DNA of 64,000 bases from a virus: positions 124,001 through 188,000 of the IMG/VR virus record IMGVR_UViG_3300007770_001284; one strand, written 5' to 3'. The notes under the pieces were generated by a model. That model saw only the letters and a list, made by a program, of their open reading frames with translations. It was not told the DNA's origin and made no database searches. This document shows, one piece after another, positions 7,530-56,135 of the stretch (position 1 is the stretch's first letter; every line of letters starts with the position of its first letter). The position numbers and the translations under genes are program-made.

Positions 7530-8786
7530 GTGGCGACATTTAAAGAGATATCAGCAGCAGACGTAAAAACATCCAGATCTGTATTAAACCAGCTAGTAGA
7601 TGTAATTCAAGAAGACATATCTGGTTCTGCGACACGAAAAAAATATCAGTTATTTGTTACTGGCGGCATTGGCCCAGGGGTGACTTCATCTCTATACCAC
7701 ACAGTATACGATCAGGATTTCTCTCTTCAGACGGCTAATGCAATTTTTGATACCACTGTCGGTTTGTACGCGGCGGGTTCCACTGTTGTTTCATCTTCCA
7801 CCGGTATCGATAGTGCTGGTAAATATTTGTTCCCCTCTCAATCAATGATGATGAGAGAAAAGATGGATATATACCAGCAATATGCAGCTAACTTGTTGGG
7901 TAGCGCAGAATCCGCTTTCGTTACACCGTTTGGAAGCGCAGCTACAACTGATATTGTGGATTCTGCATTGTTTATTTCATTCAAGCGTTTGTTCACGCGT
8001 GATAAAATTAAGCGTGAGACGTTTGCGATGCGGATGCACTATTCAGCTTCTAATGCAAACGTTATTCAAAACTTAAATTCTACATCAGAGCTTGATGAAC
8101 GAATTTATACTGACTTTGGTGCTGCATCAAATCGTCGTCGTACGTTTGGCGGCGAGGTTGGTAATTTGGTTAATGCTGCTGACACGACAGATAATGTTGG
8201 GTTAGTGTTCTACGACGCAGGTGCCATTGTGTTGAATGTCGATCGTGTAATCAGCTCGAGCCAAGCTGTGTGGGGCGTTATCTCGGGAATGCGCGATGGT
8301 ATAACAACAGGACCTGCTGGCATCACGATTGACGGAAGCACGGCGGGTTCCTATAACATTCCTACTGGGATGACGACTATAGGTGGACCGGGTACCGGTG
8401 TCGGAACAATAAAGTTTGTTCCCGATCTGATGGTGTCTGCGAGTATTGATGATATTCTTGACCACTTTATGAGTTGCCGCTTTAGCTCTGGTTCTCTTAC
8501 AGCACAGACCTTCCAAAATAATACGAATATCAATTCTACGTTGCTATTCTGTCGCGCTACAGCTGATGAATTCAACTATTCTTCAAATCCCACGTATACC
8601 GATACCACAAACAGGATTGTTGTAATAGATGAGGGTCAAGAAGATGTACAACGTTCTTTTTCGTTCATAACAACAGTGGGCCTTTACGACGCGAATGATA
8701 ACCTTCTTGCTGTCGCAAAATTATCACGTCCAATAGAAAAGAATGATGAGAAGGATTTGACGGTAAGAATCAGGCTTGATTTCTAG
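7530..8786 (+). CDS. Virion structural protein sharing a C-terminal domain with the next gene
   Basis: 418 residues starting at GTG, with a GAGG ribosome-binding site about ten bases upstream. The N-terminal part is helical (residues 1-110). The middle is Gly/Ser/Thr-rich and beta-prone. The last ~75 residues contain NPTY, then a Ser-Phe strand, then Leu-x-Asp-x-Asn, ending in VRIRLDF. The same arrangement closes the protein at 8795-11215, so the two share a homologous C-terminal domain. The terminal strand may be a docking or oligomerisation element. No enzyme motif is seen. A tail-appendage or baseplate role is inferred. Confidence 0.6.
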   Translation: MATFKEISAADVKTSRSVLNQLVDVIQEDISGSATRKKYQLFVTGGIGPGVTSSLYHTVYDQDFSLQTANAIFDTTVGLYAAGSTVVSSSTGIDSAGKYLFPSQSMMMREKMDIYQQYAANLLGSAESAFVTPFGSAATTDIVDSALFISFKRLFTRDKIKRETFAMRMHYSASNANVIQNLNSTSELDERIYTDFGAASNRRRTFGGEVGNLVNAADTTDNVGLVFYDAGAIVLNVDRVISSSQAVWGVISGMRDGITTGPAGITIDGSTAGSYNIPTGMTTIGGPGTGVGTIKFVPDLMVSASIDDILDHFMSCRFSSGSLTAQTFQNNTNINSTLLFCRATADEFNYSSNPTYTDTTNRIVVIDEGQEDVQRSFSFITTVGLYDANDNLLAVAKLSRPIEKNDEKDLTVRIRLDF

Positions 8787-8794
8787 GGGGAAGA

Positions 8795-11215
8795 GTGGCC
8801 CTCTTTAAGCTCGACAAGACTTACTTCGATTCGTTTAAGATCTTAACAAAGCCTAAACGAACCTTTGTGTCTTCGTCTGTAAGCGGTGCAACTGGATCTG
8901 TCAAGGTATTTCCGCTTACATCATTGGGGATGAAAGAAATTCCCGCTGATAGTGGTGAAGAAGACGGAGCTCCAATTGCACAAAGCTTGGAGACCGCTCG
9001 ACTAGAAGCTGTCGAATATTTTACAGCCGGGGGTACCGGCCCCTTCACCGGGTCAGTGCTCGCTTATATGGAGGCTGTGCATTCTGCTAGTACCACTGGT
9101 AAGCGAGATAAGCAGGTCGAGGTGCTTCGATTTGAGCCATCCTTTAAATTTACGAGCGATACCCTAAGAAAGAGAGTAATTGAAAAAGTTTTATTTCCAT
9201 TCTATCGACCGAAATATGGCTCTGCTTGTAATTGGGCATTTACGAATTACAATACATTGAATTTTTTTACTGGGTCTGAAGTACCATCTGATTCCGTTTT
9301 GATATATCCTGCGTCATCTTCGTTCGACGTGTCATCGACATATAGACCCTCTGGTTCTTTTTCATTCGAATTTTACATCAACCCTCGCTACACGAGCGAA
9401 ACTAGACGAGGAGCGTATTCAGCAGGGACAATTTTTCATATGTCTAGCAGTTATGCGATATCTTTAGTATCGGGAAGCTCTAAAAATGTAGATGAATTTC
9501 CAGATGGTTTCCGACTAATGTTGCAATTGAGTCACTCTGCAGATATACCACCGTCAGAAATCTCTCTTGATGTTGCTAATAATGCTCGACCAGCTCCGCA
9601 AGATCTAGTGTTTTTATCTAGTGATAATTCTTTGAAATTAAATACCTGGCATTATTGTTGTGTGCGCTGGGGTGGCACGGAAGATATCCAGGATTCAACG
9701 GGCTCATTTTACATCGACGGTGGAGAAAAGGGAACGTTTGATTTGGTTCCGACATTTCTGCAGCAAGCCGATTGGACACAAAAATGGATAGGAGGCTCAC
9801 ATGAGAATGCTGGTGATCCTGATGCATTGTTTGTTGGTAATTTTTATGAGGGAACAAATTCTACTTACGGAGTAGGCGGTGGGTTAATTGCACAATTCTT
9901 TAATGATACAATCGCAACCCGTGACGGATTAATTTCTGCTGGTGATTTTGATGGCGAAGACCCAAATTATTTTGTGTTTAGACATCCACTAAATGCCGAA
10001 TTACATGAGCTGAAAATTTATGACGCTTACCGCGATGATGAAGATATTATGTCTGCCAGCCTTTACGGCGTTGAGGACATTAAGAAAGAACCAAACCTCA
10101 TGTTTTATGTACCTCCCTTCTTTGTGAAAGATACAAGGACTCGCGAGATATTTCAAACACCCTTTCAAACAGCAGTAGGTAATACAAACGACCCATTTAA
10201 TGTTGCGCTATCTTTCGGCGTTGGCGGTCATTATCTAAATTTAGAAAATTTTGTTAAAGAATTTGTAAGAGGCTCATTTCCTCGACTGATGGCTCTATCG
10301 GGATCGACAATTGACGAGTCGACAGACTGGGTTAGCGCAAACGGATTTTTATTCGCAACAGGTAGTGTAAGAAAGCGAAACCTCACTGTATTACCTTGCG
10401 ATAACGGTCGATTACTTCCGAATTTTTCTTTGCTAGAACAAACAGCACCATCTGGGTCAGCAAGCTTAAGTTTGTTCGTGGATGATCTTGGGGTAAGATC
10501 GCTCAGTATGGTATCATTGAACAATCTATTAAGTACAGGGTCTGATTCTTTTCCAGGACTCTTAAATTCCGATGATCCTAACTCGATATCTGCTTTTCTA
10601 GCAGGTTCTTCCCCAGATGACCCATCTCTCCCTGCTGGTTCTGTATTAACGATTTTTAATAGAACAAAAGACCCAACATCGAATGAAGTTGTGTTTTTTG
10701 ATGCTAGTAATCTTTTTTATGGAAACAAAATTGATCCCGGTTCTTATGTTTTAACTGACTCAAGCGTAACTGGCTCGGGAGGTCGGGTACGAATTACATT
10801 AAAAGATAACAAGCGTGGTAGCCTATATCGGGCCGACTGTACAGGGAGCCATCCAGTGTGGTCATCTGCTGGCACGCTATTATATGATGAGGGCCTAGCA
10901 GTTGTAAAGACTCCCACAATCCCATATTTTGGAACCGATCAATTTGATATTAGAATGGCCGGCCAACAGCACATCTACGTCCTTCAGATGAATATCCCTG
11001 CGGACGCAAACTCTTTAAACAGGTCTGAAAATCCAACGTATAAAGACCTGAACCCATCAGATCTTGATGCAGACTTAAATTCATCATTCGCATATGTTAC
11101 AAATGTAAACTTACTCGATGAAAATCTTAATGTTATATGTAAATCGAACTTCGCTCAAGCTATAGTAAAAAGAGAGGATGATCGATTTATGGTTCGAGTG
11201 CGTTTAGATTTTTGA
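8795..11215 (+). CDS. Large tail-appendage protein with LamG/concanavalin-like domain
   Basis: 806 residues, GTG start after a GGGGGAAG leader. Residues about 185-425 fit a LamG-type jelly roll: SFSFEFYINP strand, a WHYCCVRW core, GSFYIDGG turn, and the closing ELHELKIYDAYRDDEDI, which is the usual end of such domains. LamG-like domains often bind surface glycans, so host-surface recognition is plausible. The C-terminal ~70 residues contain NPTY and end in VRVRLDF, homologous to the end of the preceding protein. The stop overlaps the next start codon (TGATG), linking this structural block to the recombination genes. Confidence 0.65.
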   Translation: MALFKLDKTYFDSFKILTKPKRTFVSSSVSGATGSVKVFPLTSLGMKEIPADSGEEDGAPIAQSLETARLEAVEYFTAGGTGPFTGSVLAYMEAVHSASTTGKRDKQVEVLRFEPSFKFTSDTLRKRVIEKVLFPFYRPKYGSACNWAFTNYNTLNFFTGSEVPSDSVLIYPASSSFDVSSTYRPSGSFSFEFYINPRYTSETRRGAYSAGTIFHMSSSYAISLVSGSSKNVDEFPDGFRLMLQLSHSADIPPSEISLDVANNARPAPQDLVFLSSDNSLKLNTWHYCCVRWGGTEDIQDSTGSFYIDGGEKGTFDLVPTFLQQADWTQKWIGGSHENAGDPDALFVGNFYEGTNSTYGVGGGLIAQFFNDTIATRDGLISAGDFDGEDPNYFVFRHPLNAELHELKIYDAYRDDEDIMSASLYGVEDIKKEPNLMFYVPPFFVKDTRTREIFQTPFQTAVGNTNDPFNVALSFGVGGHYLNLENFVKEFVRGSFPRLMALSGSTIDESTDWVSANGFLFATGSVRKRNLTVLPCDNGRLLPNFSLLEQTAPSGSASLSLFVDDLGVRSLSMVSLNNLLSTGSDSFPGLLNSDDPNSISAFLAGSSPDDPSLPAGSVLTIFNRTKDPTSNEVVFFDASNLFYGNKIDPGSYVLTDSSVTGSGGRVRITLKDNKRGSLYRADCTGSHPVWSSAGTLLYDEGLAVVKTPTIPYFGTDQFDIRMAGQQHIYVLQMNIPADANSLNRSENPTYKDLNPSDLDADLNSSFAYVTNVNLLDENLNVICKSNFAQAIVKREDDRFMVRVRLDF

Positions 11216-11766
11216 TGAAAGTAATTTTGGGATTAGACGTTTCTACGTCTTGTATCGGATGGTGCTTGCTGCAAACTTCTGATGGGTCTCTGGTGGATGC
11301 AGGGTATATTCCATTAAAAGACCTAAGGTGCATGTTCAGCAAGGCACAGAGGGCGCATGAGACACTCATGACGCTGGTTGACAAGTACGGCATAGAAGCT
11401 ATAGCGATCGAGGAAAACCTACAAGCATTTAGACCCGGCTTTTCAAGTGCAAAGACCCTGATTACTCTTGCCAGATTTAATGGTATAGTAAGCTGGTTGT
11501 CGTATAAATGTACGAATCTACAACCAGACTTTATAAATGTGAATCACGCGCGAAAATCGGTAGGCTTAAAAATAGATAGAAAATCTTCGCTTTCTACGAA
11601 AGAGCAAGTATTTGAGTGGGCTCAGAAGAATATGGATGATTTTTCATGGCCCACCAAGACGCTTAAGTCTGGTCCAAGAAAGGGTCATGTAATCTTCGAT
11701 GACTGTTGTTATGATATATCTGATGCTTTTGTAATCGCAAGAGCATATGTGAATGATGAGCGATGA
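11215..11766 (+). CDS. RuvC-like Holliday junction resolvase
   Basis: 183 residues from the ATG at 11215 (a TTG one codon earlier in frame is less likely). The N-terminus GLDVSTSCIGW is the first strand of the RNase H/RuvC fold, with catalytic Asp8. IAIEENL carries the second acidic residue (Glu66). The DDCCYDISDAFVIA region near the C-terminus supplies the final acidic residues, as in RuvC. The family cleaves four-way junctions. Many phages use such enzymes to resolve branched DNA before packaging, the job of endonuclease VII in T4. It overlaps the primase gene and leads a recombination set (primase, Mre11-Rad50). Confidence 0.75.
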   Translation: MKVILGLDVSTSCIGWCLLQTSDGSLVDAGYIPLKDLRCMFSKAQRAHETLMTLVDKYGIEAIAIEENLQAFRPGFSSAKTLITLARFNGIVSWLSYKCTNLQPDFINVNHARKSVGLKIDRKSSLSTKEQVFEWAQKNMDDFSWPTKTLKSGPRKGHVIFDDCCYDISDAFVIARAYVNDER

Positions 11767-12727
11767 TTTAGATATTAAAAAGCGCGTTATGCTAGTTCAG
11801 CGAGCGTTTGGGTCTGTGCTTTTTGATAGAGACGGTGTGAATGTTGCAATTGGATGTGTCAACAAAGACTGTTCTTCTTTTGGAAAGCCAGCGAAAAAGA
11901 AACTAACGTTGCGAGTTGACAATGAGTTTTACCACTGTTGGGTTTGCGGCCTCCGGGGGAAAGGGTTAGCTTATTTCTTTCGAAAGTATAAGCCTAATTT
12001 TTCATCGCATGCCGCTGCCATATTTGAAAAGAAGATTGATGAAATCAAGGAAGAAATTCAGCTTATTCAACTTCCTGAGGAGTTTACGCTATTGGCTCAA
12101 CTAGGGAAGAACGCTGATCCAGATCTTCGAGCATGCAGAAGCTATCTTTACAATCGTGGATTGACACAAAAAGATTTATGGTATTTCAAGATTGGGGCTG
12201 TAACCGGCGGTCGATATCGTCGTAGGGTGATTATCCCATCTTTTGATGGTGAGGGGGTGCTGAATTATTACACTGCTAGAGCTATCGATGGTGAAGTGAA
12301 CAGGAAGTATCTAAATCCAAAAGTACGACGAGCTGACGTGATATTTAACGATATTAATATTGATTGGTCACAAGAGCTCACGTTAGTCGAAGGTCCATTT
12401 GACTTAATTAAATCGAATGAAAACACGACTTGCTTGTTGGGTAGCACGTTGAGTCCCCAACATGAATTATTCAAAAAGATAGTGAAAAACAAGACCCCAG
12501 TAATTCTTGCTCTTGATCCTGATGCGATTAAGAAGACACATGAAATTGCTGCAACTCTTGCTAGGTTTGATATTTGCGTAAAAATATTGAAGTTTGATAA
12601 TTTTTCTGATGTGGGTGAGATGCCGAGAGGACATCTCTCGCAGTTACTACCTCATGCAGAAGAATGGAGTGAGATGGCAAGACTGCGATCGCTTATTGGA
12701 ACGATTCGGTCAGGGTCTTTAATCTAG
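11753..12727 (+). CDS. DnaG-type DNA primase (zinc finger plus Toprim)
   Basis: 324 residues (a second ATG follows immediately at 11756). A zinc-binding module is visible at residues 35-65: C35 and C40, then H61-C62 and C65 in HCWVC, close to the CHC2 arrangement. The Toprim core follows: LVEGPFDL with Glu near residue 213, and LALDPDA with two Asp near 255-257. These elements define bacterial and T4 gp61-type primases that lay down RNA primers for the helicase. It is shorter than bacterial DnaG and lacks an obvious helicase-binding C-terminal domain. It overlaps the resolvase gene by 14 bases. The partner helicase is probably the gene at 57088. Confidence 0.8.
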   Translation: MMSDDLDIKKRVMLVQRAFGSVLFDRDGVNVAIGCVNKDCSSFGKPAKKKLTLRVDNEFYHCWVCGLRGKGLAYFFRKYKPNFSSHAAAIFEKKIDEIKEEIQLIQLPEEFTLLAQLGKNADPDLRACRSYLYNRGLTQKDLWYFKIGAVTGGRYRRRVIIPSFDGEGVLNYYTARAIDGEVNRKYLNPKVRRADVIFNDINIDWSQELTLVEGPFDLIKSNENTTCLLGSTLSPQHELFKKIVKNKTPVILALDPDAIKKTHEIAATLARFDICVKILKFDNFSDVGEMPRGHLSQLLPHAEEWSEMARLRSLIGTIRSGSLI

Positions 12728-12734
12728 GGGTGTT

Positions 12735-15700
12735 ATGTTTCGGTGCGCGCATTTTGCTGATGTCCACTTTCGTGGGCTGACAAGACATAAAGAATACAGA
12801 GATGTATTTTCAAGATCGTTTGTAGAATTACGAAAGCTACGTCCAGATGCGATCTTTATTGGTGGCGATATTGTCCACTCAAAGACGCAGGGGATCAGTC
12901 CTGAATTAATTCATATTTTGACTTGGTGGTTTAATTCGTTAGCCGAGATTGCTCCTGTTCATGTTATTTTGGGGAACCATGACGGATTGATGTTGAATGA
13001 AGATAGGCTTGACGCTATTACGCCTATTTTAGAAGCATTAGATAATCCAGACATACATCTCTTCAAAGAATCCGGTACATATGATACCGGGGTTGCTGGC
13101 TATAAGTGGAATGTATTCAGCTGTTTTGACATAAGGGGGTGGGATGATGTTGAGCCAGATCCATCTTGTATCAATATCGCAACATTCCACGGTCCTGTGA
13201 ACGGGTCTTTGACCGATCAAGATTGGGAGATTAATGGGGATAGCGTGTCAGTTGATTTTTTCAATAAATTCGATTTTGCTTTTCTCGGTGACATCCACAA
13301 GAGGCAATATTTGACACCAAAAATTGCATATCCTGGTTCAACAATCCAGCAGAATTATGGTGAGACGGTAGAAAAGGGTTTTTTGTTCTGGGAGATTAGG
13401 GATAAAGATGATTTTGATTCAAAGTTTATTCCGCTTAAGAATGAGAAGGCTTTTCGAACGTACCGGTGGAAAGGCACAGTCATAGATACGCTAGATCAAA
13501 TTCCAGAATACGCTTCTGGTGCTAGATTTAGAATTGCGCATGAAGGATTAAACCAAGTTGACTTTAAGCAGCTACAAACAGAGTTACGAGAAACATTTTC
13601 TGCTGAAGAAGTTGTCTCAAAGGATGAATCAAAGGCATTCACTGGGTCAGATGTTGTAATTTCAACCTCTGTAGGTGAAATAAGCAGAACTGATCTACGA
13701 AGTTTCAAATATCAAGATCGGCTTATGACTGACTTTGTATCACGAAATACACTTTCTTCCGACCAACGCGATTCTCTCCGTGCATTGCACAAAGATATTT
13801 TTCATAAGTGCGTTCAACAAGCCAACCAACAAGCACATCAGTGGCGTTTACGAAAGCTCGCGTTTGACAATATGTTCGGGTATGGCGAAGATAACATCAT
13901 AGACTTTGATGCTCTTCACGGTATCACTGGTATTTTTGGTAAAAATCGTTCCGGAAAATCTTCGATTCCTGGGACACTAGTTTACGGATTGTTTAATTCT
14001 TCTGATCGCGGTACGTTGAAAAATTTGCACATTGTGAATAGTCGAAAGAATTTTTGCCGCGCAAGTGTCGATGTCTCGATCGGTAGCAAGATGTATCGTA
14101 TTGACCGGCAAACAATTAAGCGAACAAGCAGAACAGGAGTGGTATCTGCGCCCACGCACTTGAATCTTTACGCGCTAGATGATGACGGGAATATAATAGT
14201 AGACAGTACGGAAGAACAGCGAAGAGAGACTGAAAAAGTTTTACGCGGTCTGGTAGGTACCGTCGATGATTTCTTGATGACGTCATTCGCATCTCAGGGT
14301 GATATGAACGCCTTTATTCGCGAGGGTGCTACAAAGCGAAAAGCAATTCTTACAAGATTTTTAGATCTGCAGATTTTTGATACGATGTTGAGGATGGCAA
14401 AAAATGAAATAACAGAATTAAGAGGCGAGATGAAATCTGCCCCAGATAGAGACTGGAGTACATTGATCACTGAACAGGCAGACGCGTTAATATCTCATAA
14501 GCAAGAAAGAGCAGAGATTGAGGCAGAGTTAGCTGAATTAAAGGAAAAGAGAGATCAACTCAAATTACAGTTGATATCATCTCCGTCCGATACGGTTTAT
14601 ACACAACAAGATATACAGACACAGGTTATTCATTTGCAGACCCTAGAAGAGCGTAACTCTGCTCTGAGCGTAGAGGTGTTACAAACGTGCGAAGAGATGG
14701 ATGTCACTAGAGGAAAAATTACAAAAATTGATATAATTTGTGAACAATTTCCTGTAAAAGAGTTGAAGGAAGAAGCAGAACTACAAAAAGACTTAGCGAA
14801 TCAGATTGAATTAACACAATCAAGACTAGACCTCGAGCAGCAGCGTTTACAGTCACAAACGAAGTCTGCGAAGAAACTTGATACCGTTCCGTGCGGTGAT
14901 CAGTTCCCTAAGTGCCCGTATATTAAAGATGCTCACAAAAGTGCCAAAGAGATCGCCGGACAAAAAAGTGTCATTTCTTCCACCAGGAAAGAATTGGGGG
15001 CGATTAAAAAGAATCTTGAGAAATTAAGGGATAAGGGTCTCGGGGAGAAGCTAGCTAAGTACGAAGAAATGCTGAAAAATGCGCAGCATTTAAGGTTAAA
15101 AAACTCTGACTTAAAGCTCAATTTAAGAGAGCTAGAAAGCGACCAGCAAGCAGTGGTTAGTGAAATTTCACATGGTAAAGAGCTTCTACGTGATATGCGA
15201 CTCCGCTCTGCTGATGAAGAGAAAGATGCAGAAATTATTAAAATGCGGCTTGATCTTAAGCGTTTAGAAAAAAGAATATCAGAAATAGATGCTGAGCGGT
15301 TGTACTTGACAGAACAAATTAGCCTAAGCTCTGCTAGACAAGAAGAGCTACAAACAGAGAAAGAGAAGTTTGGTGCTCTGAAAGACCGCTGGGAAACATA
15401 CTCATTGTTTACGCAGGCAGTCGATAAACGTGGAATTCCACTAACAATCTTATCTCTTCAACTTCCCCGTATCAATGCTGAGCTTACGAAGATTTTGCAG
15501 GGAGTGGTGAATTTCAGCGTTGAGATTGAATCTCGGCTAGACTCAAATAATTTGGACATTTTCATAGATTACGGTGATTCGAAGCGTATTATAGAATGCG
15601 GTTCCGGGATGGAGAAAATGATTTCATCTCTTGCTCTTCGGGTTGCGCTTATTAATATTTGTAATGCCCCAAGAAGTGATGTGTTGATTATTGACGAGGG

Positions 15701-15878
15701 CTTCGGCACGCTAGATGACAAAAACATTGAGGCCTGCTCCCGTTTACTAATGTCTCTTAAGAAATACTTTTCCAATATTCTGATTATTTCACATGTGGAT
15801 GCTGTAAAAGATATCGTAGATAACGTTCTAGACATACAGAAAATAGGGAAAGATGCAAAAATCAGACATTGCGAATAA
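12735..15878 (+). CDS. Mre11-Rad50 (SbcD-SbcC, gp47-gp46) fusion protein
   Basis: 1047 residues in one uninterrupted frame. Residues 1-~330 are an Mre11/SbcD calcineurin-like nuclease: ADVH (D9, H11), GGDIVHS (D45, H48), LGNHD (N81-H82-D83) and GDIH. Residues ~375 to the end are Rad50/SbcC: Walker A GKNRSGKSS (402-410), long coiled coil ~580-910, a Cys pair at 720 and 727 (CGDQFPKC) in the zinc-hook position, ABC signature SGMEK (957), and Walker B IIDEGFG (D987-E988) followed by a D-loop and switch His. In T4 and bacteria the two are separate genes. The complex processes DNA ends for recombination-dependent replication. The hook is C-x6-C, not the usual CxxC. Confidence 0.85.
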   Translation: MFRCAHFADVHFRGLTRHKEYRDVFSRSFVELRKLRPDAIFIGGDIVHSKTQGISPELIHILTWWFNSLAEIAPVHVILGNHDGLMLNEDRLDAITPILEALDNPDIHLFKESGTYDTGVAGYKWNVFSCFDIRGWDDVEPDPSCINIATFHGPVNGSLTDQDWEINGDSVSVDFFNKFDFAFLGDIHKRQYLTPKIAYPGSTIQQNYGETVEKGFLFWEIRDKDDFDSKFIPLKNEKAFRTYRWKGTVIDTLDQIPEYASGARFRIAHEGLNQVDFKQLQTELRETFSAEEVVSKDESKAFTGSDVVISTSVGEISRTDLRSFKYQDRLMTDFVSRNTLSSDQRDSLRALHKDIFHKCVQQANQQAHQWRLRKLAFDNMFGYGEDNIIDFDALHGITGIFGKNRSGKSSIPGTLVYGLFNSSDRGTLKNLHIVNSRKNFCRASVDVSIGSKMYRIDRQTIKRTSRTGVVSAPTHLNLYALDDDGNIIVDSTEEQRRETEKVLRGLVGTVDDFLMTSFASQGDMNAFIREGATKRKAILTRFLDLQIFDTMLRMAKNEITELRGEMKSAPDRDWSTLITEQADALISHKQERAEIEAELAELKEKRDQLKLQLISSPSDTVYTQQDIQTQVIHLQTLEERNSALSVEVLQTCEEMDVTRGKITKIDIICEQFPVKELKEEAELQKDLANQIELTQSRLDLEQQRLQSQTKSAKKLDTVPCGDQFPKCPYIKDAHKSAKEIAGQKSVISSTRKELGAIKKNLEKLRDKGLGEKLAKYEEMLKNAQHLRLKNSDLKLNLRELESDQQAVVSEISHGKELLRDMRLRSADEEKDAEIIKMRLDLKRLEKRISEIDAERLYLTEQISLSSARQEELQTEKEKFGALKDRWETYSLFTQAVDKRGIPLTILSLQLPRINAELTKILQGVVNFSVEIESRLDSNNLDIFIDYGDSKRIIECGSGMEKMISSLALRVALINICNAPRSDVLIIDEGFGTLDDKNIEACSRLLMSLKKYFSNILIISHVDAVKDIVDNVLDIQKIGKDAKIRHCE

Positions 15879-16095
15879 TGACTCGCTGCCAAACTTTGTT
15901 CCGCTAGACTGTCCTCTATGTGGGTTTTTATTTCGTGATTTTCAAGACTGCATGCAATACTTAGAGGTCAAGTGCTGCACAGAGTGTTGGATAAGTTTTT
16001 TGGAGCCAATAAAAAAAATAAATGAAGATGACGACTACGAACCGAACAGTTCAGAGATTGCTGCGTGGCGAGAAAAGGTTTCGTCTGGCGAATAG
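15853..16095 (+). CDS. Small zinc-binding protein of unknown function
   Basis: 80 residues; the ATG lies 26 bases inside the end of the Mre11-Rad50 gene. Cysteines at 20, 23, 33, 41, 42 and 45 (CPLC and CCTEC) look like a zinc ribbon or knuckle. The C-terminal half is acidic. A structural clue is the only basis; possible roles are a DNA-binding accessory factor for the recombination complex or a transcription factor. Its stop codon sits in AATAGTTA, which may also be the promoter element for the next gene. Confidence 0.6.
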   Translation: MQKSDIANNDSLPNFVPLDCPLCGFLFRDFQDCMQYLEVKCCTECWISFLEPIKKINEDDDYEPNSSEIAAWREKVSSGE

Positions 16096-16098
16096 TTA
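16091..16098 (+). promoter_or_regulatory. Candidate late promoter element AATAGTTA
   Basis: AATAGTTA overlaps the preceding stop and lies 26 bases before the 16117 start. It is near-identical to elements before the neck and both sheath genes and resembles the T4 late promoter box TATAAATA. The call depends on recurrence only. Confidence 0.35.
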
Positions 16099-16116
16099 GT
16101 CTATAGGAGCTTACAA

Positions 16117-16485
16117 ATGTTGACGGTTAATGAAATTCGAGCGTTAGGTGATTGTTTAAATACGACATGGGGAAAGTCTGTCGACAATCTTAAATTATCA
16201 CATCATCTGAACGGTGAAACTTTGAACTTGCGCTTTGATAGTATTGTGCATTTTGCGAGTGAGGCCTCCCTTGATAGTCAAATGACAAATTTAAGAGAGA
16301 TGTCAAACGATATTTTTACTGATGGTGTAAAGAAGATCAAAGCAGAATTTAAAGATATTGCTGGAAGGGCACTTACAGCGACAGAGACTTCACGGGATGA
16401 CAATGTTGAATTGATACAAGCCACCGCGAATTCTCCTCGAAGAGTTGCATATTATCGTGCTTTTTTGACGTTGCAAGTAAGCTAA
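16117..16485 (+). CDS. Conserved hypothetical protein upstream of terminase
   Basis: 122 residues, ATG with a TAGGAG ribosome-binding site. Predicted layout: a short helix, a beta strand (NLRFDSIVHFA), a long helix (residues ~55-90), and a final pair of strands ending AYYRAFLTLQVS with an RR pair before them. I do not recognise the family. The gene is where T4 has the small terminase gp16, but it shows neither the usual coiled-coil nor a helix-turn-helix, so I do not call it a small terminase. It may contribute to head completion or packaging. Confidence 0.5.
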   Translation: MLTVNEIRALGDCLNTTWGKSVDNLKLSHHLNGETLNLRFDSIVHFASEASLDSQMTNLREMSNDIFTDGVKKIKAEFKDIAGRALTATETSRDDNVELIQATANSPRRVAYYRAFLTLQVS

Positions 16486-16494
16486 TAATGCTTG

Positions 16495-18093
16495 ATGCCC
16501 CCACTGACCAAACAGAAACAAGTAGCTGAGATTGTAAAATGCGGTAAAGACCCCGCGTATTTTATTAATCGCTATGTACAGATTCAACACCCCATCCGGG
16601 GGAGAATTCCGTTTCATACATTTTCGTTCCAGGATGATTGCTTAAAGCACTTCAACGATCATCGCTTTAATATTGTGGTTAAATCCAGGCAGCTTGGTCT
16701 GTCTACACTCACTGCTGCATATGCAGTTTGGATGACGTTATTTCGCAAGGATAAAACTGTTCTTGTTATTGCTACTAAGCTTGCCGTTGCTCAAAACTTC
16801 ATTAAAAAAGTTAAAATAGCTCTTTCCGGTGTTCCTCCGTGGATGTGGATTACCGACATAACCACAAAGAACACCCAAGGAATCGAATTTTCAAATGGTT
16901 CTGCGATAAAGGCAATACCAACTTCAGAAGATGCGGGCCGGTCTGAAGCTTTGAGTTTACTGATCGTTGATGAAGCTGCGTTTATTCGAAACTTTGATGA
17001 ATTATGGAAAGGGCTATATCCAACGTTGTCAACTGGTGGGCGAGCCCTAATAGTAAGTACTCCCAACGGTACCGGTGGACAGTATTATGACTTGTGGCAT
17101 CATGCGGTTGAGGGCACGAATGAATTTAACCCAATAAAGCTTCCTTGGGATGTACATCCCGAGCGTGATGATGAATGGTTCAATAAAGAATCTATGAATA
17201 TGAACAAGCAGCAGGTTGCTCAAGAGCTGCTTTGTGATTTTCAAGCCTCGGGTGATACTTTTCTACCAATGGAAGAGATTGAAAAATTACGGTATAAGGT
17301 CCGCGTCCCGTTGGAGAAATGGGGCCCTGAAAACAATGTGTGGGTGTGGAAATATGCATTCCCTGACCATGAATATGTAATATCTTCGGATGTCTCCCGC
17401 GGTGACGGAAATGATTACTCTACATTTCATATTATAGACACTACTATTTCTGAGGTGGTTGCTGAATTTCGAGGTAAGGTCCCACCTGACCAACTTGCGT
17501 ATCTTTTGGTCGAGGCCGCAAATAGATATCATGAAGCGCTCCTGTGTCCTGAAAGTAACACATACGGATATGCTGTGTTAATGAAACTTCAAGAGATTGG
17601 GTACAGAAACATTTATTTTTCTAAAGAAAAAGATAAATTTAACGCATTGTATGGTAATGGACCAATTAGCAAGGCTGGATTTTCAACGCAAGGACCAAGT
17701 CGCGCAAAAATTCTTACGAAATTGGAAGAGATGATAAGGAACGATAAGGTTGACGTGTATTCTGAGCGTCTGGTAAATGAATTAAAGACGTTTGTGTGGA
17801 GCAATAACAAAGCGCAAGCACAGCGCGGGAAGACCGATGACCTTGTGATGTCATTCGCAATTGGTCTTTGGTTATATGACGGAGATAAAGTTAGCTCTAA
17901 AAAAGCCGTGGACGTGAACAAAGCAATGTTGGCTGGTTTTGCGATGAACAAGACAGAAGAATCACAGTCAGATAATAATATGTCACCATTTAATAAGCAG
18001 GTCGGAATATTTACTGCCAAGGGTTGGCCGGTTTCTATGGATTCTGATCACCCAATGATATCTGGGTCGGTGGATTTTAAATGGTTACTTTGA
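16495..18093 (+). CDS. gp17: Terminase large subunit (packaging ATPase-nuclease)
   Basis: 532 residues from the ATG at 16495; a TTG one codon earlier is the alternative. The ATPase domain has a deviant Walker A, KSRQLGLST (~63-71), in which the usual GK-T/S lysine is replaced by Leu and a Lys lies at the start. Walker B LLIVDEAAF (~155-163) and motif III STPNG follow. The C-terminal RNase H-like nuclease shows ISSDVSRGDGNDYS (first Asp ~299), CPESNTYG (Glu ~353) and TDDLVMSFAI. The family docks on the portal and pumps and cuts concatemeric DNA. It is directly followed by the portal gene; in T4 sheath and tube genes lie between. Confidence 0.92.
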   Translation: MPPLTKQKQVAEIVKCGKDPAYFINRYVQIQHPIRGRIPFHTFSFQDDCLKHFNDHRFNIVVKSRQLGLSTLTAAYAVWMTLFRKDKTVLVIATKLAVAQNFIKKVKIALSGVPPWMWITDITTKNTQGIEFSNGSAIKAIPTSEDAGRSEALSLLIVDEAAFIRNFDELWKGLYPTLSTGGRALIVSTPNGTGGQYYDLWHHAVEGTNEFNPIKLPWDVHPERDDEWFNKESMNMNKQQVAQELLCDFQASGDTFLPMEEIEKLRYKVRVPLEKWGPENNVWVWKYAFPDHEYVISSDVSRGDGNDYSTFHIIDTTISEVVAEFRGKVPPDQLAYLLVEAANRYHEALLCPESNTYGYAVLMKLQEIGYRNIYFSKEKDKFNALYGNGPISKAGFSTQGPSRAKILTKLEEMIRNDKVDVYSERLVNELKTFVWSNNKAQAQRGKTDDLVMSFAIGLWLYDGDKVSSKKAVDVNKAMLAGFAMNKTEESQSDNNMSPFNKQVGIFTAKGWPVSMDSDHPMISGSVDFKWLL

Positions 18094-18120
18094 TTTCTAG
18101 TCTACCGAGGGAGTGCACAA

Positions 18121-20118
18121 ATGGCTGATAAAGGAAACATGTTCCAGAGGTTAACAAACCTCTTTAGAGCAGGTCCTGTGGTTAAACGTCGAGTACGTAC
18201 ACAAGGCACTAGCGGCACTTCTTCTTCAGCGGCACTGTTTAAGCGAGCTCATAATGATGTCTACAATACGACCCTCAGCGCATACGGCTCGTTCGACAGG
18301 ATGTCCAGATATTCTGATTTTAGTGAGATGGAAGCCACTCCCGAGATCGCCTCAGCTCTGGACATATATTCAGAAGAAACAGTTAGTCCGGATGAGCATG
18401 GGCGAGTCTTGCATATCTTCTGTGAGAATGATGTTCAGAAAGAGCTGCTAGAAACACTTTTTTATGATACGCTAAATCTAGAATTTAATTTGGTGATGTG
18501 GGTTCGAAATCTCTGTAAATACGGTGATTTTTTTCTCTTTAATGATATTGATCCCGAATTTGGTATTATCAATGCTTATCCTATTCCAATATCAGAAGTA
18601 GAGCGAGAAGAAGGGTTTGATCCTGAGAATCCAGGTGCGGTTCGTTTTCGCTGGTTGACACAAGGGAATTCTACACTAGAAAATTGGCAATTAACACATT
18701 TTCGTCTTTTGGGCAATGATGCGTTTTTGCCGTACGGTTCTTCGGTTCTTGAATCAGCAAGACGAATTTGGCGTCAATTAATATTGATAGAAGATGCGAT
18801 GTTGGTTTATAGAGTTATTCGTTCTCCCGAACGACGTGTTTTTTACATCGATGTTGGAAACGTGCCTCCTGAAGATGTTCCAAATTATCTTGAGCAAGCC
18901 ACAAGTTCGCTGAAGCGCGCTCCAGTTATAGACAAGACCAATGGGAAAGTCGATCTCAGGTTTAACCCACTTAGCGTTGACGAGGATTATTTTATCCCAG
19001 TTCGTGGTGGTGAGTCGGGCACGAAGATTGAGTCATTAGCAGGTGGTGCTAACACCAGCGCGATTGAAGATGTAGAATATATTCAAAAGAAATTATTTGC
19101 TGCGTTGAAAATTCCGCGGGCATATCTTGGGTATGATGAAGACATTGGTGCGAAGGCAACCCTAGCACAAGAAGACATAAGGTTCAGTCGTACGATCCAG
19201 AGAATTCAGAAGACAGTGGTTGCTGAATTGAACAAATTGGCGATGATTCATCTTTTTGTTCACGGCTACGATGGAGAAGACTTAATTGATTTCGAGTTGA
19301 AATTATCAAACCCATCGAGCGTAGCGCAATTACAGAAGCTTGAGTTAATATCTACACGTTTTGACATAGCTGGAAAAGTACCAGAAGGCTTTTACGATCG
19401 TCGATGGGTACAAAAGAACGTATTGGGATTGACAGACAAGGTAATTGAAGAAATTATCGAGGGCAGAAAGGAAGATAAGTTAATAGACGCTGAAGTTGAG
19501 GCTTCCGGTGCCGCAGAAGGCGGCGACGAAGGCGGCGGCGGATTTGACATGGGCGGCGGCGAAGAAGCCGGTGGTGATGAGGGCGGCGGACTCTTTGCTG
19601 CTGATGAACCTGAAGGTCCGCTCTTGACTGCGCATCCTGCTGGTGGAAAAAATCGGCGTGCCACCAGTGATGACGAGGATGAGGACGAAGAAATTGACAT
19701 TTCCAGTCTTTCCATAGACGACCCTGACGCACCCCTAAAAGCACAAGCGTCTGTGAAAAAGGTTTTTGGAAAGCCCACTCCGGGTACCCAAGCAAAACGT
19801 GGTCCTCTCACGACGCACACACCAGACTTTAAAAAGATGGTAACTCATGGCCGTCCACAAGATTCGTTGCGAAAACCTTATGGCGAAGACTATCTTAAGC
19901 CCGCATTTGAGGGCATAGAATGGAATGAGCAGGATACTTACGAAAGTATGTCTAGAACTGTCAAACCAGCCATGACTCCCGAATTGAGGAGAGCGATGCA
20001 ATCGTTGTCGTCAATTTTGGCTCCTGAAGGTGGCGTTCTGTTGTCAGAAGCAGCAGAAAATGAGGAAGATTCATTCGACCTTGATGAATACGATGCCGGA
20101 GATATCGATGAAAGTTAA
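18121..20118 (+). CDS. gp20: Portal protein
   Basis: 665 residues with GGGAG before the ATG. The N-terminal and central regions follow the T4-type portal pattern: MEATPEIASALDIY near residues 62-75, VMWVRNLCKYGDFFLF, and a clip/crown region with SPERRVFYIDVG and GAKATLAQEDIRFSR (about 342-356). The dodecameric ring at one vertex is the DNA entry and exit gate and the terminase docking site. It is longer than T4 gp20 (524) because of a C-terminal tail. Residues ~460-500 are Gly/Asp/Glu-rich low complexity, followed by an acidic, then mixed, region. The tail end overlaps the next gene by 11 bases. Confidence 0.9.
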   Translation: MADKGNMFQRLTNLFRAGPVVKRRVRTQGTSGTSSSAALFKRAHNDVYNTTLSAYGSFDRMSRYSDFSEMEATPEIASALDIYSEETVSPDEHGRVLHIFCENDVQKELLETLFYDTLNLEFNLVMWVRNLCKYGDFFLFNDIDPEFGIINAYPIPISEVEREEGFDPENPGAVRFRWLTQGNSTLENWQLTHFRLLGNDAFLPYGSSVLESARRIWRQLILIEDAMLVYRVIRSPERRVFYIDVGNVPPEDVPNYLEQATSSLKRAPVIDKTNGKVDLRFNPLSVDEDYFIPVRGGESGTKIESLAGGANTSAIEDVEYIQKKLFAALKIPRAYLGYDEDIGAKATLAQEDIRFSRTIQRIQKTVVAELNKLAMIHLFVHGYDGEDLIDFELKLSNPSSVAQLQKLELISTRFDIAGKVPEGFYDRRWVQKNVLGLTDKVIEEIIEGRKEDKLIDAEVEASGAAEGGDEGGGGFDMGGGEEAGGDEGGGLFAADEPEGPLLTAHPAGGKNRRATSDDEDEDEEIDISSLSIDDPDAPLKAQASVKKVFGKPTPGTQAKRGPLTTHTPDFKKMVTHGRPQDSLRKPYGEDYLKPAFEGIEWNEQDTYESMSRTVKPAMTPELRRAMQSLSSILAPEGGVLLSEAAENEEDSFDLDEYDAGDIDES

Positions 20119-38028: not shown

Positions 38029-38877
38029 ATGTCCACTAAGAAAGAGGGTACCGGTCGAAGCGAAATTTTTGGTGATATGAAAGAGCATATGCCATCATCG
38101 AATGTTATGAAAGATGATTTCGGCTTCGAAATACCAGTTGAAAATGTTCCGCTCCCATCAATGGGGCGATGTTATGCTGGGGATTCCCCTCTAGCGAATC
38201 AAGAAACAATACAGATTCGTGCCATGACGGCCAGAGAAGAAGACATTCTTACTTCTAAAGCCCTTATCAAGAAGGGAACCGTTATATCTCATCTGCTGAA
38301 GTCTTGTATGCTCAATAAGGCTATTGAACCAGATCAAATGTTGGCCGGTGATAGAAACGCAGTAATGATTGCATTACGAGTGACAGGCTACGGTGCGGAG
38401 TACAAAGTAGAAGTTGATTGTCCAGCATGCCAGCAACGATCGAAGCAAGCTTTTGATCTTGGCGGCTTAGAGATCAATCGCCTTGGTATCGATCCTGTGT
38501 CGGTCGGGGTAAATCTTTTCGAATTGCAGCTTCCTGTAACTAAGGCGAAGGTACGCTTTAAGTTCTTGACCGGTGCCGATGAGCAAGATATCATGGTCGA
38601 ACAGGAGCGTCGAAAGAAACAGGGTCAACAGTCTGAGAATTTAATTACTTCTCGTCTGCGCTACTCCATCGTGTCGGTCAACGGTGTCACCGATAAGTCA
38701 AAGCTTGACCTCTTTATTCGTAGCATGCCTGCCAGAGATTCTTTAGCGTTCAGAACTCATCTTGATAAAAATGAGCCCGGAATTCAAATGAGAAGTTGGA
38801 TGGATTGTACATCTTGTTTGGAACATTCGGAGGTACGGCTGCCCCTCGGGGCCGCGTTTTTTTGGCCTGACGAGTGA
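38029..38877 (+). CDS. gp26-like baseplate hub / tail assembly chaperone (0-frame product)
   Basis: 282 residues from the ATG at 38029 (TGTGAGG seven bases upstream; a TTG at 38023 is weaker). The region IPVENVPLPSMGRCY, then IQIRAMTAREEDILTS, and a CPAC pair with a later CTSC pair resemble the T4 gp26-type baseplate hub protein family of myoviruses. The CxxC pairs may bind zinc. It lies directly before the tape measure, the usual place of tail assembly chaperones. Four codons before its stop is a run of seven T (38857-38863), and the +1 frame beyond is open to 39115, which suggests a longer frameshift product of about 360 residues. Confidence 0.65.
   Translation: MSTKKEGTGRSEIFGDMKEHMPSSNVMKDDFGFEIPVENVPLPSMGRCYAGDSPLANQETIQIRAMTAREEDILTSKALIKKGTVISHLLKSCMLNKAIEPDQMLAGDRNAVMIALRVTGYGAEYKVEVDCPACQQRSKQAFDLGGLEINRLGIDPVSVGVNLFELQLPVTKAKVRFKFLTGADEQDIMVEQERRKKQGQQSENLITSRLRYSIVSVNGVTDKSKLDLFIRSMPARDSLAFRTHLDKNEPGIQMRSWMDCTSCLEHSEVRLPLGAAFFWPDE
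38857..38863 (+). promoter_or_regulatory. Probable ribosomal frameshift site (T7)
   Basis: GCG TTT TTT TGG in frame 0: a run of seven T, four codons before the TGA at 38875. Slippage by +1 (or -2) enters an open frame that continues through the 38915-39115 reading frame. Paired tail-chaperone products made by frameshifting just upstream of the tape measure gene are widespread in long-tailed phages. Confidence 0.6.
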
Positions 38878-38914
38878 CCACAAAGAGGCCTTTCTAGAGC
38901 ACATCTTTGCCCTG

Positions 38915-39115
38915 ATGTATTATATGGGGTTTTCGTACGTAGAGGTGTACAACATCCCCATATGGCAGCGCATATGGTTTATCCAACGCTTGAACAAAGA
39001 GCTTAAGAAAGCCAATGGTGATTCCAGGGCAGCACATGCAAATTCCGCTGATGCCAGGGCATTAATGGGCAAACATCGTGCACAAGTCCCGTCAAAATTA
39101 CGTAGATTCACATAA
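38915..39115 (+). CDS. Tail assembly chaperone C-terminal part (frameshift extension)
   Basis: 66 residues if started at the ATG at 38915, but that ATG has no well-placed ribosome-binding site. The frame is open upstream across the T7 run. In that frame it reads HKEAFLEHIFALMYYMGFSY before the ATG would be used, which looks like genuine coding sequence. The visible part continues YNIPIWQRIWFIQRLNKEL, a helical segment I recall as conserved in the small gene after gp26-like proteins in related phages. I interpret it as the downstream half of a frameshifted tail assembly chaperone acting on the tape measure. Independent translation by coupling remains possible. Confidence 0.6.
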   Translation: MYYMGFSYVEVYNIPIWQRIWFIQRLNKELKKANGDSRAAHANSADARALMGKHRAQVPSKLRRFT

Positions 39116-51021: not shown

Positions 51022-51063
51022 TAATTCTTGAACATACTACTTGTGTGCTCTAATTTTGCTCTA

Positions 51064-52266
51064 ATGTCTATTTTTGTTTGTAAAGATGCTATAGGAACAG
51101 GACAGAGCTTATTACTTGAAGATGGCCAAGCATGTTGGGTCACCGATGAATATCCGGCAACATTCACTTATGGCTGTGGTGATAGAATCAATGCGTCTGA
51201 GCCTCTGTTCCAGCTTTTTGATATCACTTTACCAGAATTGATACCAGCAGAATTTATTCAAGCAATGCGAACATGCGGGATCGACAAGGGTGTTCCGTGG
51301 GCTCATATATTGCCAAAAAGGAAATTTATGGAGAGGTTTAAAAACTTCATCAATGCCCTTTCAGCCGCAGAAGAAAATATAGCGAATAATGAATATTCTA
51401 ATTTTTTTATTGAAACGAACAGAATTTTAAATAAACTATACTCATGTCAGCTCGACATGGACAAAGCTAAGCACGAACTGGAAATGACTACCTCTGCTGC
51501 TTTGACTAGCTTTTTGAAAGCTAGCAAAAACGCCATAATTGAACCGCCACAATATAGCAGAGTTTCTACTAAAACAGGACGTCTTACAATTAAAACTGGT
51601 CCGCAAATTTTAACTCTAAAAAAAGAATATCGTGAAGTTTTAAGAAGCAGGTTTGATGGTGGGTCTTTATTTGAAGTCGACTTTACATCACTAGAGCCAA
51701 GAGTCGCGTTTAATATCACTGCTGGGGAGAAGTTGCTACCGGGGGAAAAGAGTCCAACAGATCTATACCAATTCTTTATAGAGAAATCTAATATTCAAAT
51801 TCAGCGAGACACTGCGAAGCTAGCTGTGCTGTGTTCGCTTTACGGCGCAGGCACCTCTAAGTTGAGGTCAGTTTTGCAGAAAGACGGAAGCACATTTTCT
51901 GCTGACATGCTGGTCAAGAGGGTCGAGTCGTTTTTTGGCTTAAAAGAGATATTCAAAATGTTGAATGACCAAGCACAATCCGGGTATATTACCAATTTTT
52001 ATGGTCGACCTATCGAAGTCACCGACACTCGTCGCAATATTTTAGTCAATAATTTTCTACAATCAACAGCTGTTGACGTCGCTCTAGCGGGTTTTTGCCA
52101 GATTGTCGAAAATATTCCTTCGTGTAGGCCGGTCTTTATTATTCATGATGCCCTAATTATGGATGTGCCAAACGGACAGGAAGACAAGTTGCAAGACATA
52201 GTCGCTAAAGGATTTTCTGATGAGAAGATGGGTCACTTTCCCCTCAAGCTTACGAGGTTAAAATGA
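51064..52266 (+). CDS. Stand-alone family A DNA polymerase domain
   Basis: 400 residues from the ATG at 51064; a TTG at 51028 would add 12 residues, and neither start has a good ribosome-binding site. Polymerase landmarks in order: TGRL near residue 171-174; motif A EVDFTSLEPRV with Asp206 and Glu211; motif B (fingers) R248-x3-K252-x3-L256-x3-Y260, with Leu at the E. coli Phe762 position; motif C FIIHDALIMDVP with Asp362 and Ala where most have Glu. The length equals the thumb-palm-fingers part alone. No 3'-5' or 5'-3' exonuclease is present; these are encoded separately at 52799 and 56128. Role: DNA synthesis, possibly replicative. Confidence 0.8.
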   Translation: MSIFVCKDAIGTGQSLLLEDGQACWVTDEYPATFTYGCGDRINASEPLFQLFDITLPELIPAEFIQAMRTCGIDKGVPWAHILPKRKFMERFKNFINALSAAEENIANNEYSNFFIETNRILNKLYSCQLDMDKAKHELEMTTSAALTSFLKASKNAIIEPPQYSRVSTKTGRLTIKTGPQILTLKKEYREVLRSRFDGGSLFEVDFTSLEPRVAFNITAGEKLLPGEKSPTDLYQFFIEKSNIQIQRDTAKLAVLCSLYGAGTSKLRSVLQKDGSTFSADMLVKRVESFFGLKEIFKMLNDQAQSGYITNFYGRPIEVTDTRRNILVNNFLQSTAVDVALAGFCQIVENIPSCRPVFIIHDALIMDVPNGQEDKLQDIVAKGFSDEKMGHFPLKLTRLK

Positions 52267-54944: not shown

Positions 54945-56135
54945 ATGGCAAGAAAGAAAAAAGAAGAAGTTGATTTCACCAGTGACTTGATTAAGTCTTT
55001 AAATAAGGAGCACGGCTCTCGTGTTGCATACAATTTATCACAAGATGAATCTCCTACACACGTGAAACGCTGGATCGGTACAGGTTCTAAACAATTAGAT
55101 TATATTATCTCTAATAGACCCAATGGTGGATTACCAGAGGGTCGAATTGTGGAAATATTTGGACCGCCCTCGATTGGCAAGTCTCATATTGCAATTCAGA
55201 TTGCTCGTTCCACCCAAGAGATGGGTGGAATTGTTGTTTATATCGACACAGAAAATGCTACTTCTGTAGAAAATCTCAGTCTTCTGGGTGTTGATATCAC
55301 TAAGCGTTTTGTGTATGTTGACACTCACTGTACTGAAGAAGTATTATCGATTGCAGAGGCTACAATTATGAAAGCAAAGGCGATGGATAAGGATGTTCCG
55401 ATTACGATCGTCTGGGATTCAGTCGCTGCTTCGTCACCAAAGGCTGAATTGGTAGGAGATTATGACCAAAACTCGATTGGCCTGCAGGCAAGAGCTATTT
55501 CTAAAGGGATGCGAAAAATTACAGGTGTAATCGGTAATCAAAATGTTTTGTTTGTTATTCTAAATCAGATTCGAACTAAGATCGGTGTGATGTATGGTGA
55601 TCCAACAGTTACGCCGGGAGGAAAAGCGATTCCATTTCATTCCTCCGTACGTATTAAGCTTGGTGCCGGCCAAAAGATTGAAAACAAGAATAAAGAAGTT
55701 GTCGGGATTCACGTTTCTGCAAAGACAATCAAGAATAAAGTCGCTGCTCCATTTCGTACTTGTAATTTCGAGATTCATTTTGGGAAAGGAATTCAAGAAC
55801 ATGAGCAAGTTTTTGATGAATTACGAAAATTCGGGGCAGGTATTGTAGACGGAAATGAAATTTGTATTAAGGGGACATCCGCTTGGAAAAACCTCACAGT
55901 CGCAGACGTTTCCACCGGGGAAATTTTGGTGGAAAAGAAGTTTTATAAAGCGGATTTCAATGATGTGTGGAAAGACCCGCAATATCGAAAGTATATTGAT
56001 GCTTTGCTTGAGCTTTGTATGATTCGAAAACTAGAAGACCCCAATGCTGCCGAGCTAGACACTGAATCGTATGAAGAGGTTCGCTCTGCCGTGATGGAGC
56101 TAAACCTTGAAGACATGCCAGATTTAGATGTATGA
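54945..56135 (+). CDS. uvsX: RecA-like recombinase
   Basis: 396 residues with GGGG before the ATG. RecA core: Walker A GPPSIGKSH (residues 73-81), VVYIDTENA, Walker B ITIVWDSVAA, and the L1/L2 segments with LNQIRTKIGVMYGDP and TPGGKAIPFHSSVRI. These are close to T4 UvsX/RecA. The N-terminal Lys-rich start and acidic C-terminus are typical. It catalyses strand exchange for recombination-dependent replication and repair, working with gp32 and the Mre11-Rad50 fusion in this genome. It overlaps the nuclease gene downstream by 8 bases. Confidence 0.92.
   Translation: MARKKKEEVDFTSDLIKSLNKEHGSRVAYNLSQDESPTHVKRWIGTGSKQLDYIISNRPNGGLPEGRIVEIFGPPSIGKSHIAIQIARSTQEMGGIVVYIDTENATSVENLSLLGVDITKRFVYVDTHCTEEVLSIAEATIMKAKAMDKDVPITIVWDSVAASSPKAELVGDYDQNSIGLQARAISKGMRKITGVIGNQNVLFVILNQIRTKIGVMYGDPTVTPGGKAIPFHSSVRIKLGAGQKIENKNKEVVGIHVSAKTIKNKVAAPFRTCNFEIHFGKGIQEHEQVFDELRKFGAGIVDGNEICIKGTSAWKNLTVADVSTGEILVEKKFYKADFNDVWKDPQYRKYIDALLELCMIRKLEDPNAAELDTESYEEVRSAVMELNLEDMPDLDV

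Follow-up and report, generated by a model that had tools for sequence, protein, structure and literature searches.

Mre11 nuclease and Rad50 motor are the two halves of the universal DNA-break-processing machine. In the window considered here (the 64,000-nucleotide stretch covering positions 124,001 to 188,000 of virus record IMGVR_UViG_3300007770_001284), features of both fall within one gene, raising the questions of whether this gene is genuine, whether it is new, and what its product does for the virus. The source of the gene is a large marine phage of the tailed type. We favor, at a probability of roughly 0.85, the reading that the protein belongs, as a phage representative, to the known viral Mre11/Rad50 fusions of the R555 type, acting as a single-chain SbcDC nuclease-ATPase that gives the M2R2 assembly and that processes and tethers DNA ends for recombination-dependent replication. 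Most likely, it is the single-chain counterpart of gp47/gp46 from phage T4.

The gene occupies positions 12735–15878 on the plus strand and consists of a single open frame of 1047 residues lacking any internal stop. Pfam analysis detected a Metallophos domain at residues 3–172 (E = 1.7e-9), an AAA_23 domain at residues 375–609 (E = 6e-9), and SbcC_Walker_B at residues 953–1005, the latter with an E-value of 3e-4 that lies under Pfam's own cut-off. PHROG profiles returned an SbcD-like match over residues 1–329 (1e-29) and an SbcC-like match over residues 338–1040 (4e-46), so that Pfam and PHROGs agree on an N-terminal Mre11-like domain followed by a Rad50-like domain; PDB chains of Mre11, Rad50, and SbcC match the corresponding parts. 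An uninterrupted 1047-residue frame with both domains, as described in a first-pass annotation of this DNA, is therefore borne out by translation and by both profile collections. The complete virus record spans 254,743 bp, within which the fusion is the only Metallophos match, leaving no second Mre11, and the only AAA_23 match above cut-off, leaving no clear second Rad50; a weak AAA_23 match at positions 38581–38937 falls under the cut-off.

The nuclease and capping domain (residues 1–299; 12735–13631, plus strand) was delimited by motifs, Pfam, PHROG, and an AlphaFold model. It carries D9xH11, GGD45xxH48, GN81H82D83, H152, and GD186xH188 (here GD186IH188). The first-pass annotation had described the Mre11/SbcD motifs as complete, which holds for all but one: the first His of the GHxH motif, equivalent to His206 of Pyrococcus furiosus Mre11, is Asp throughout the fused family. 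GDIH (residues 185–188) is found in 105 of 107 family sequences, the remaining two being unaligned or incomplete at the motif. The protein thus keeps seven of the eight phosphoesterase metal ligands of known Mre11 (D, H, D, N, H, H, H, H). Most phage SbcDs sampled have GHxH itself, as do E. coli SbcD, T4 gp47, and the proteins of the SPO1-like, Moorella, and Monoglobus types. A T5-like Vibrio phage has GDLH, probably at the equivalent motif.

Because the His of GHxH is Asp in the whole family, full nuclease activity of the fusion should not be assumed. One could go further and regard the protein as a non-nucleolytic structural variant, in which the Mre11 half is inactive and the chain serves solely as an ATP-driven tether for DNA ends. 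The near-universal replacement of GHxH by GDIH in the family, set beside the retention of GHxH by E. coli SbcD, T4 gp47, and most sampled phage SbcDs, speaks for this proposal. It is nevertheless improbable, since Asp is itself a metal ligand and loss of function would normally allow the remaining ligands to drift; yet D9, H11, D45, N81, H82, H152, and H188 are all near-invariant across the 107 aligned sequences, as are H48 and D83. As a putative Mre11/SbcD nuclease, the fusion protein would be expected to show Mn2+-dependent activity.

In the Rad50 half, the ATPase motifs are divided by a coiled coil, as indicated by Pfam, alignment, and model, into an N-terminal lobe containing Walker A and the Q-loop (residues 369–560; 13839–14414, plus strand) and a C-terminal lobe containing the SGMEK signature, the Walker B DE, and the H-loop SH (residues 893–1047; 15411–15875, plus strand); PDB matches cover both lobes. 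Walker A (402–410), Q521, SGMEK (957–961), D987/E988 of Walker B, and H1020 are near-invariant in the 107 aligned relatives, in keeping with the earlier listing of Walker A, hook, signature, and Walker B. The coiled coil ascends over residues 546–717 and descends from residue 731 in the AlphaFold model.

How the two halves are joined can be followed in the same model, which has a mean pLDDT of 83.8 and contains the nuclease, cap, helix-loop-helix, ATPase head, and coiled coil with its apex loop; with a pTM of 0.46, the arrangement of these domains relative to each other is unreliable. Nuclease and cap end at residue 297, and confidence is low at residues 300–322 (13632–13700, plus strand), a probably disordered connector with pLDDT below 50 at 300–313. 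Next come predicted helices at 324–335 and 342–362, corresponding to the Rad50-binding helix-loop-helix segment of Mre11 (residues 324–362; 13704–13820, plus strand). Profile comparison matches positions 170–361 to the C-terminal portion of SbcD from E. coli, so both the model helices and the SbcD match indicate that the capping and helix-loop-helix region is retained between nuclease and ATPase. A six-residue inter-domain linker (residues 363–368; 13821–13838, plus strand) separates the last helix from the first Rad50 strand at residue 369, immediately before the invariant W370. The join is under tight length control, as segment 345–370 measures 25–28 residues in all 107 sequences. For the Thermotoga maritima complex, the bridge needed between the Mre11 C-terminus and the Rad50 N-terminus was estimated at 9–12 residues (PMC3175470); the shorter gap in the fusion means that local packing or contacts may differ somewhat. 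The first-pass annotation proposed that fusion would alter the coupling of nuclease to ATPase, which may or may not hold. Placement of the helix-loop-helix directly beside the start of Rad50 in the model suggests the usual Mre11–Rad50 complex, now built within a single chain.

Two copies of the fusion would dimerize through their nuclease domains, their ATP-bound Rad50 heads, and a metal hook, such that the usual M2R2 machine would arise from one gene. The resulting particle would process and tether DNA double-strand ends and thereby supply the phage RecA with 3' single strands, serving repair and recombination-dependent replication as gp47/gp46 do for T4. The genomic setting favors this putative replication role. 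Directly upstream on the plus strand lie genes for a RuvC-like resolvase (11212–11766; PHROG 159, E = 7e-12) and a DnaG-type primase (11753–12727; PHROG 47, E = 4.5e-30), and the same window encodes RecA (approximately 54945–56135) and a family A DNA polymerase (DNA polymerase A; approximately 51028–52266). The primase neighbors the fusion in 102 of the 108 loci with enough upstream flank, and the RuvC-like gene in 72 of 101 such loci. Alternatively, the fusion might serve mainly in degradation of host DNA or in counter-defense rather than in phage recombination, a thought encouraged by annotations according to which T4 gp46/gp47 also act in host-DNA degradation. We consider this very unlikely, as both the conserved linkage to primase and RuvC and the presence of RecA in the genome indicate replication and recombination.

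Downstream, a gene for the terminase large subunit (16492–18093, plus strand; PHROG 2, E = 3e-51) is a neighbor in 93 of the 110 loci whose contigs extend far enough on that side, and the recurring order is RuvC, primase, fusion, terminase, portal. Across positions 11212–20118, RuvC, primase, and the fused nuclease directly precede terminase and portal, an order kept in most relatives, and the recombination genes are thus embedded in the packaging/virion block. In the basal Mel-JY01-like clade, it is essentially the primase link alone that is found. Further upstream, two adjacent large ORFs lacking a PHROG match (7530–8786 and 8795–11215; 418 and 806 aa) share a similar C-terminal "VRxRLDF" tail.

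The breadth of the family bears on whether the fusion is genuine. A scan of viral contigs yielded 54 full-length single-frame matches, among them the record that contains the window, four contigs with an identical gene at the nucleotide level, and one contig held in duplicate by two collections. The four identical contigs (0 nucleotide differences) possibly stem from the same virus population. With further scans, the profile search for fused SbcD–SbcC proteins that had been proposed earlier recovered at least 123 loci in which one ORF encodes both domains, at approximately 26–100% identity; in the family-alignment scan, 370 relatives were confirmed, of which the best 80 entered the set. Among close relatives from the contig scans, none encodes Mre11 and Rad50 as separate genes. 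ORFs with a single domain are truncated at a contig edge; the exception is Bacillus phage 278BB001, a distant relative. Where synonymous sites are unsaturated, as in the pair L046/L047, dN is 0.01–0.03 versus a dS of 0.8–1.4 in heads and coil alike (a dN/dS no higher than about 0.03). An assembly or sequencing artefact joining two adjacent genes, conceivable given that T4, E. coli, and many phages encode the two proteins in separate genes lying near each other, can be rejected with near certainty, along with the sequencing error hiding a stop or frameshift between the domains that the first-pass annotation had raised, because the frame is uninterrupted in dozens of divergent contigs among these loci, the linker length is conserved, and the isolated phage Mel-JY01 is annotated with a single 1066-aa protein.

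Two loci show interruptions of a different kind, located inside the Mre11 part and away from the domain junction. In an uncultured huge phage (LR756508; L082, 2944–7166), approximately 900 bp are inserted just past GDIH; they contain an ORF of 305 aa that encodes a TnsA-like endonuclease domain, which looks like a homing insertion. In L107 (3850–4080), the frame changes near the same codon, just past GDIHK, with about 100 extra bases, which may be either what is left of a comparable insertion or a frameshift. Neither locus gave an Rfam match to an intron. Only one bacterial match was obtained, a contig from a Halobacteriovorax metagenome-assembled genome (PBIO01000013.1) that agrees in length and coordinates with viral contig IMG/VR 2788500220_000013. 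The two entries seem to represent one phage contig, which was probably binned with a host; this identity provides either a possible host lead or an instance of binning error. Candidate plasmid carriers were discarded, their matches being separate SbcD and SbcC genes or partial.

Fusions of this kind have a published history. In 2011, Yoshida, Claverie, and Ogata described Mimivirus R555 together with twelve other Mre11/Rad50 or SbcD/SbcC fusions from a Bacillus phage, plasmids, bacteria, and eukaryotes (PMC3175470). They also reported that R555-like genes are abundant in aquatic and marine viral metagenomes, probably deriving in part from phages (PMC3175470). Like the window protein, R555 combines an N-terminal Mre11 and a C-terminal Rad50 in one chain, keeps the cap and helix-loop-helix, and bears the His-to-Asp change that turns GHxH into GDxH (PMC3175470), but it is longer (1351 aa), has a longer coiled coil, and belongs to a giant virus of eukaryotes rather than a tailed phage. 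In fold comparison, the best full-length matches of the window model are DNA-repair proteins of giant viruses related to mimivirus (Tupanvirus, E = 2.9e-60, 22% identity) and Tenacibaculum phage proteins, with matches of approximately 970–1390 residues spanning Tupanvirus, Harvfovirus, Yasminevirus, Catovirus, Tenacibaculum phages, and a Listeria phage; common descent with R555 itself is possible. Among cultured phages, Microcystis phage Mel-JY01 encodes a full-length fused homolog (WWT39521.1; 1066 aa, 29% identity across the whole window protein), preceded by a primase-like gene and a single small ORF. This homolog is annotated as "AAA domain containing protein," with no mention of its Mre11 half, and differs in having a CxxC-type hook (YDPKCKHCC).

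Two separate-gene systems are also comparable. T4 gp47/gp46 is likewise a phage Mre11/Rad50 pair with an expected role in recombination-dependent replication, but it consists of two genes with GHFH and CPTC motifs and a shorter Rad50 (560 aa), and the tree places it outside the fused family. E. coli SbcD/SbcC comprises the same two enzymes, whose solved structures match by profile; however, its genes are separate, its motifs are GHIH and CPLC, and the SbcC coiled coil is longer. The tree, built from nuclease and ATPase head columns with separate-gene T4, T5-like, SPO1-like, Moorella, Monoglobus, and E. coli proteins as outgroup, unites the fused phage proteins (FastTree support 0.87). With a small outgroup and no giant-virus sequences in the tree, it is likely, though no more than that, that the two genes fused once in these phages. 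The novelty implied by the first-pass annotation consequently falls away: such fusions were published in 2011 (PMC3175470), and in this widespread phage group, where the architecture proved common, the fusion is the normal form. The present survey confirms a known pattern and adds more than 100 phage examples to the few partial marine ones of the 2011 study.

The hook is the sole part of the protein that could teach something new. At the apex of the coiled coil, alignment and model place a loop at residues 718–730 (14886–14924, plus strand), between helices 674–717 and 731–765, that carries C720-x6-C727 instead of a CxxC zinc hook. The earlier remark that this differs from the usual motif is well founded, as CxxC occurs in 9 of 11 sampled separate-gene Rad50s (T4, E. 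coli, Bacillus 278BB001, Staphylococcus, T5-like Vibrio, cyanophage MbCM1, Rhizobium N34, Klebsiella Muenster, and Bacillus G). Since the ATPase head is unambiguous and the other two, from a Moorella phage and Monoglobus, also lack CxxC, C-x6-C is treated as a hook variant and not as grounds for denying Rad50/SbcC membership. The two conserved apex Cys residues suggest that it binds metal. Our searches found no published description of a conserved C-x6-C hook.

Fused proteins of the basal clade carry CxxC (type C). In the clade to which the window protein belongs, C-x6-C takes one of two sequence forms, VPCGDxFPxC (type A, 69 sequences) or PC[SD]CxEHLPxC (type B, 12 sequences). A CxxC hook also appears beside A-type relatives in L051/L052, whose long branches may have misplaced them. 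Types A and B are scattered over the catalytic-head tree, requiring seven changes, at least six of them forced by well-supported branches; the alternation involves L015, L011, L019, L049, L050, L053, L075, L120, L057, L021, L023, and L033. We entertain, as a speculative and on balance unlikely idea, that the C-x6-C hook is a distinct metal-dependent Rad50 dimerization module whose tip is an exchangeable specificity element, swapped between A and B at least six times on nearly unchanged heads and perhaps preventing mixed dimers between co-infecting phages. A tree from the 50 columns flanking the hook has little resolution and synonymous sites are saturated, so the pattern may stem from either recombination or convergence. 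Pairs such as L021/L022 are 93–97% identical in most head segments versus 35% in the hook segment. Only two changes are required across those 50 flanking columns, from which it follows that hook type reaches into the neighboring helix, mostly the ascending one. Over residues 690–716, identity between B hooks of separate clades is 58%, versus 33–36% in other cross-clade pairs.
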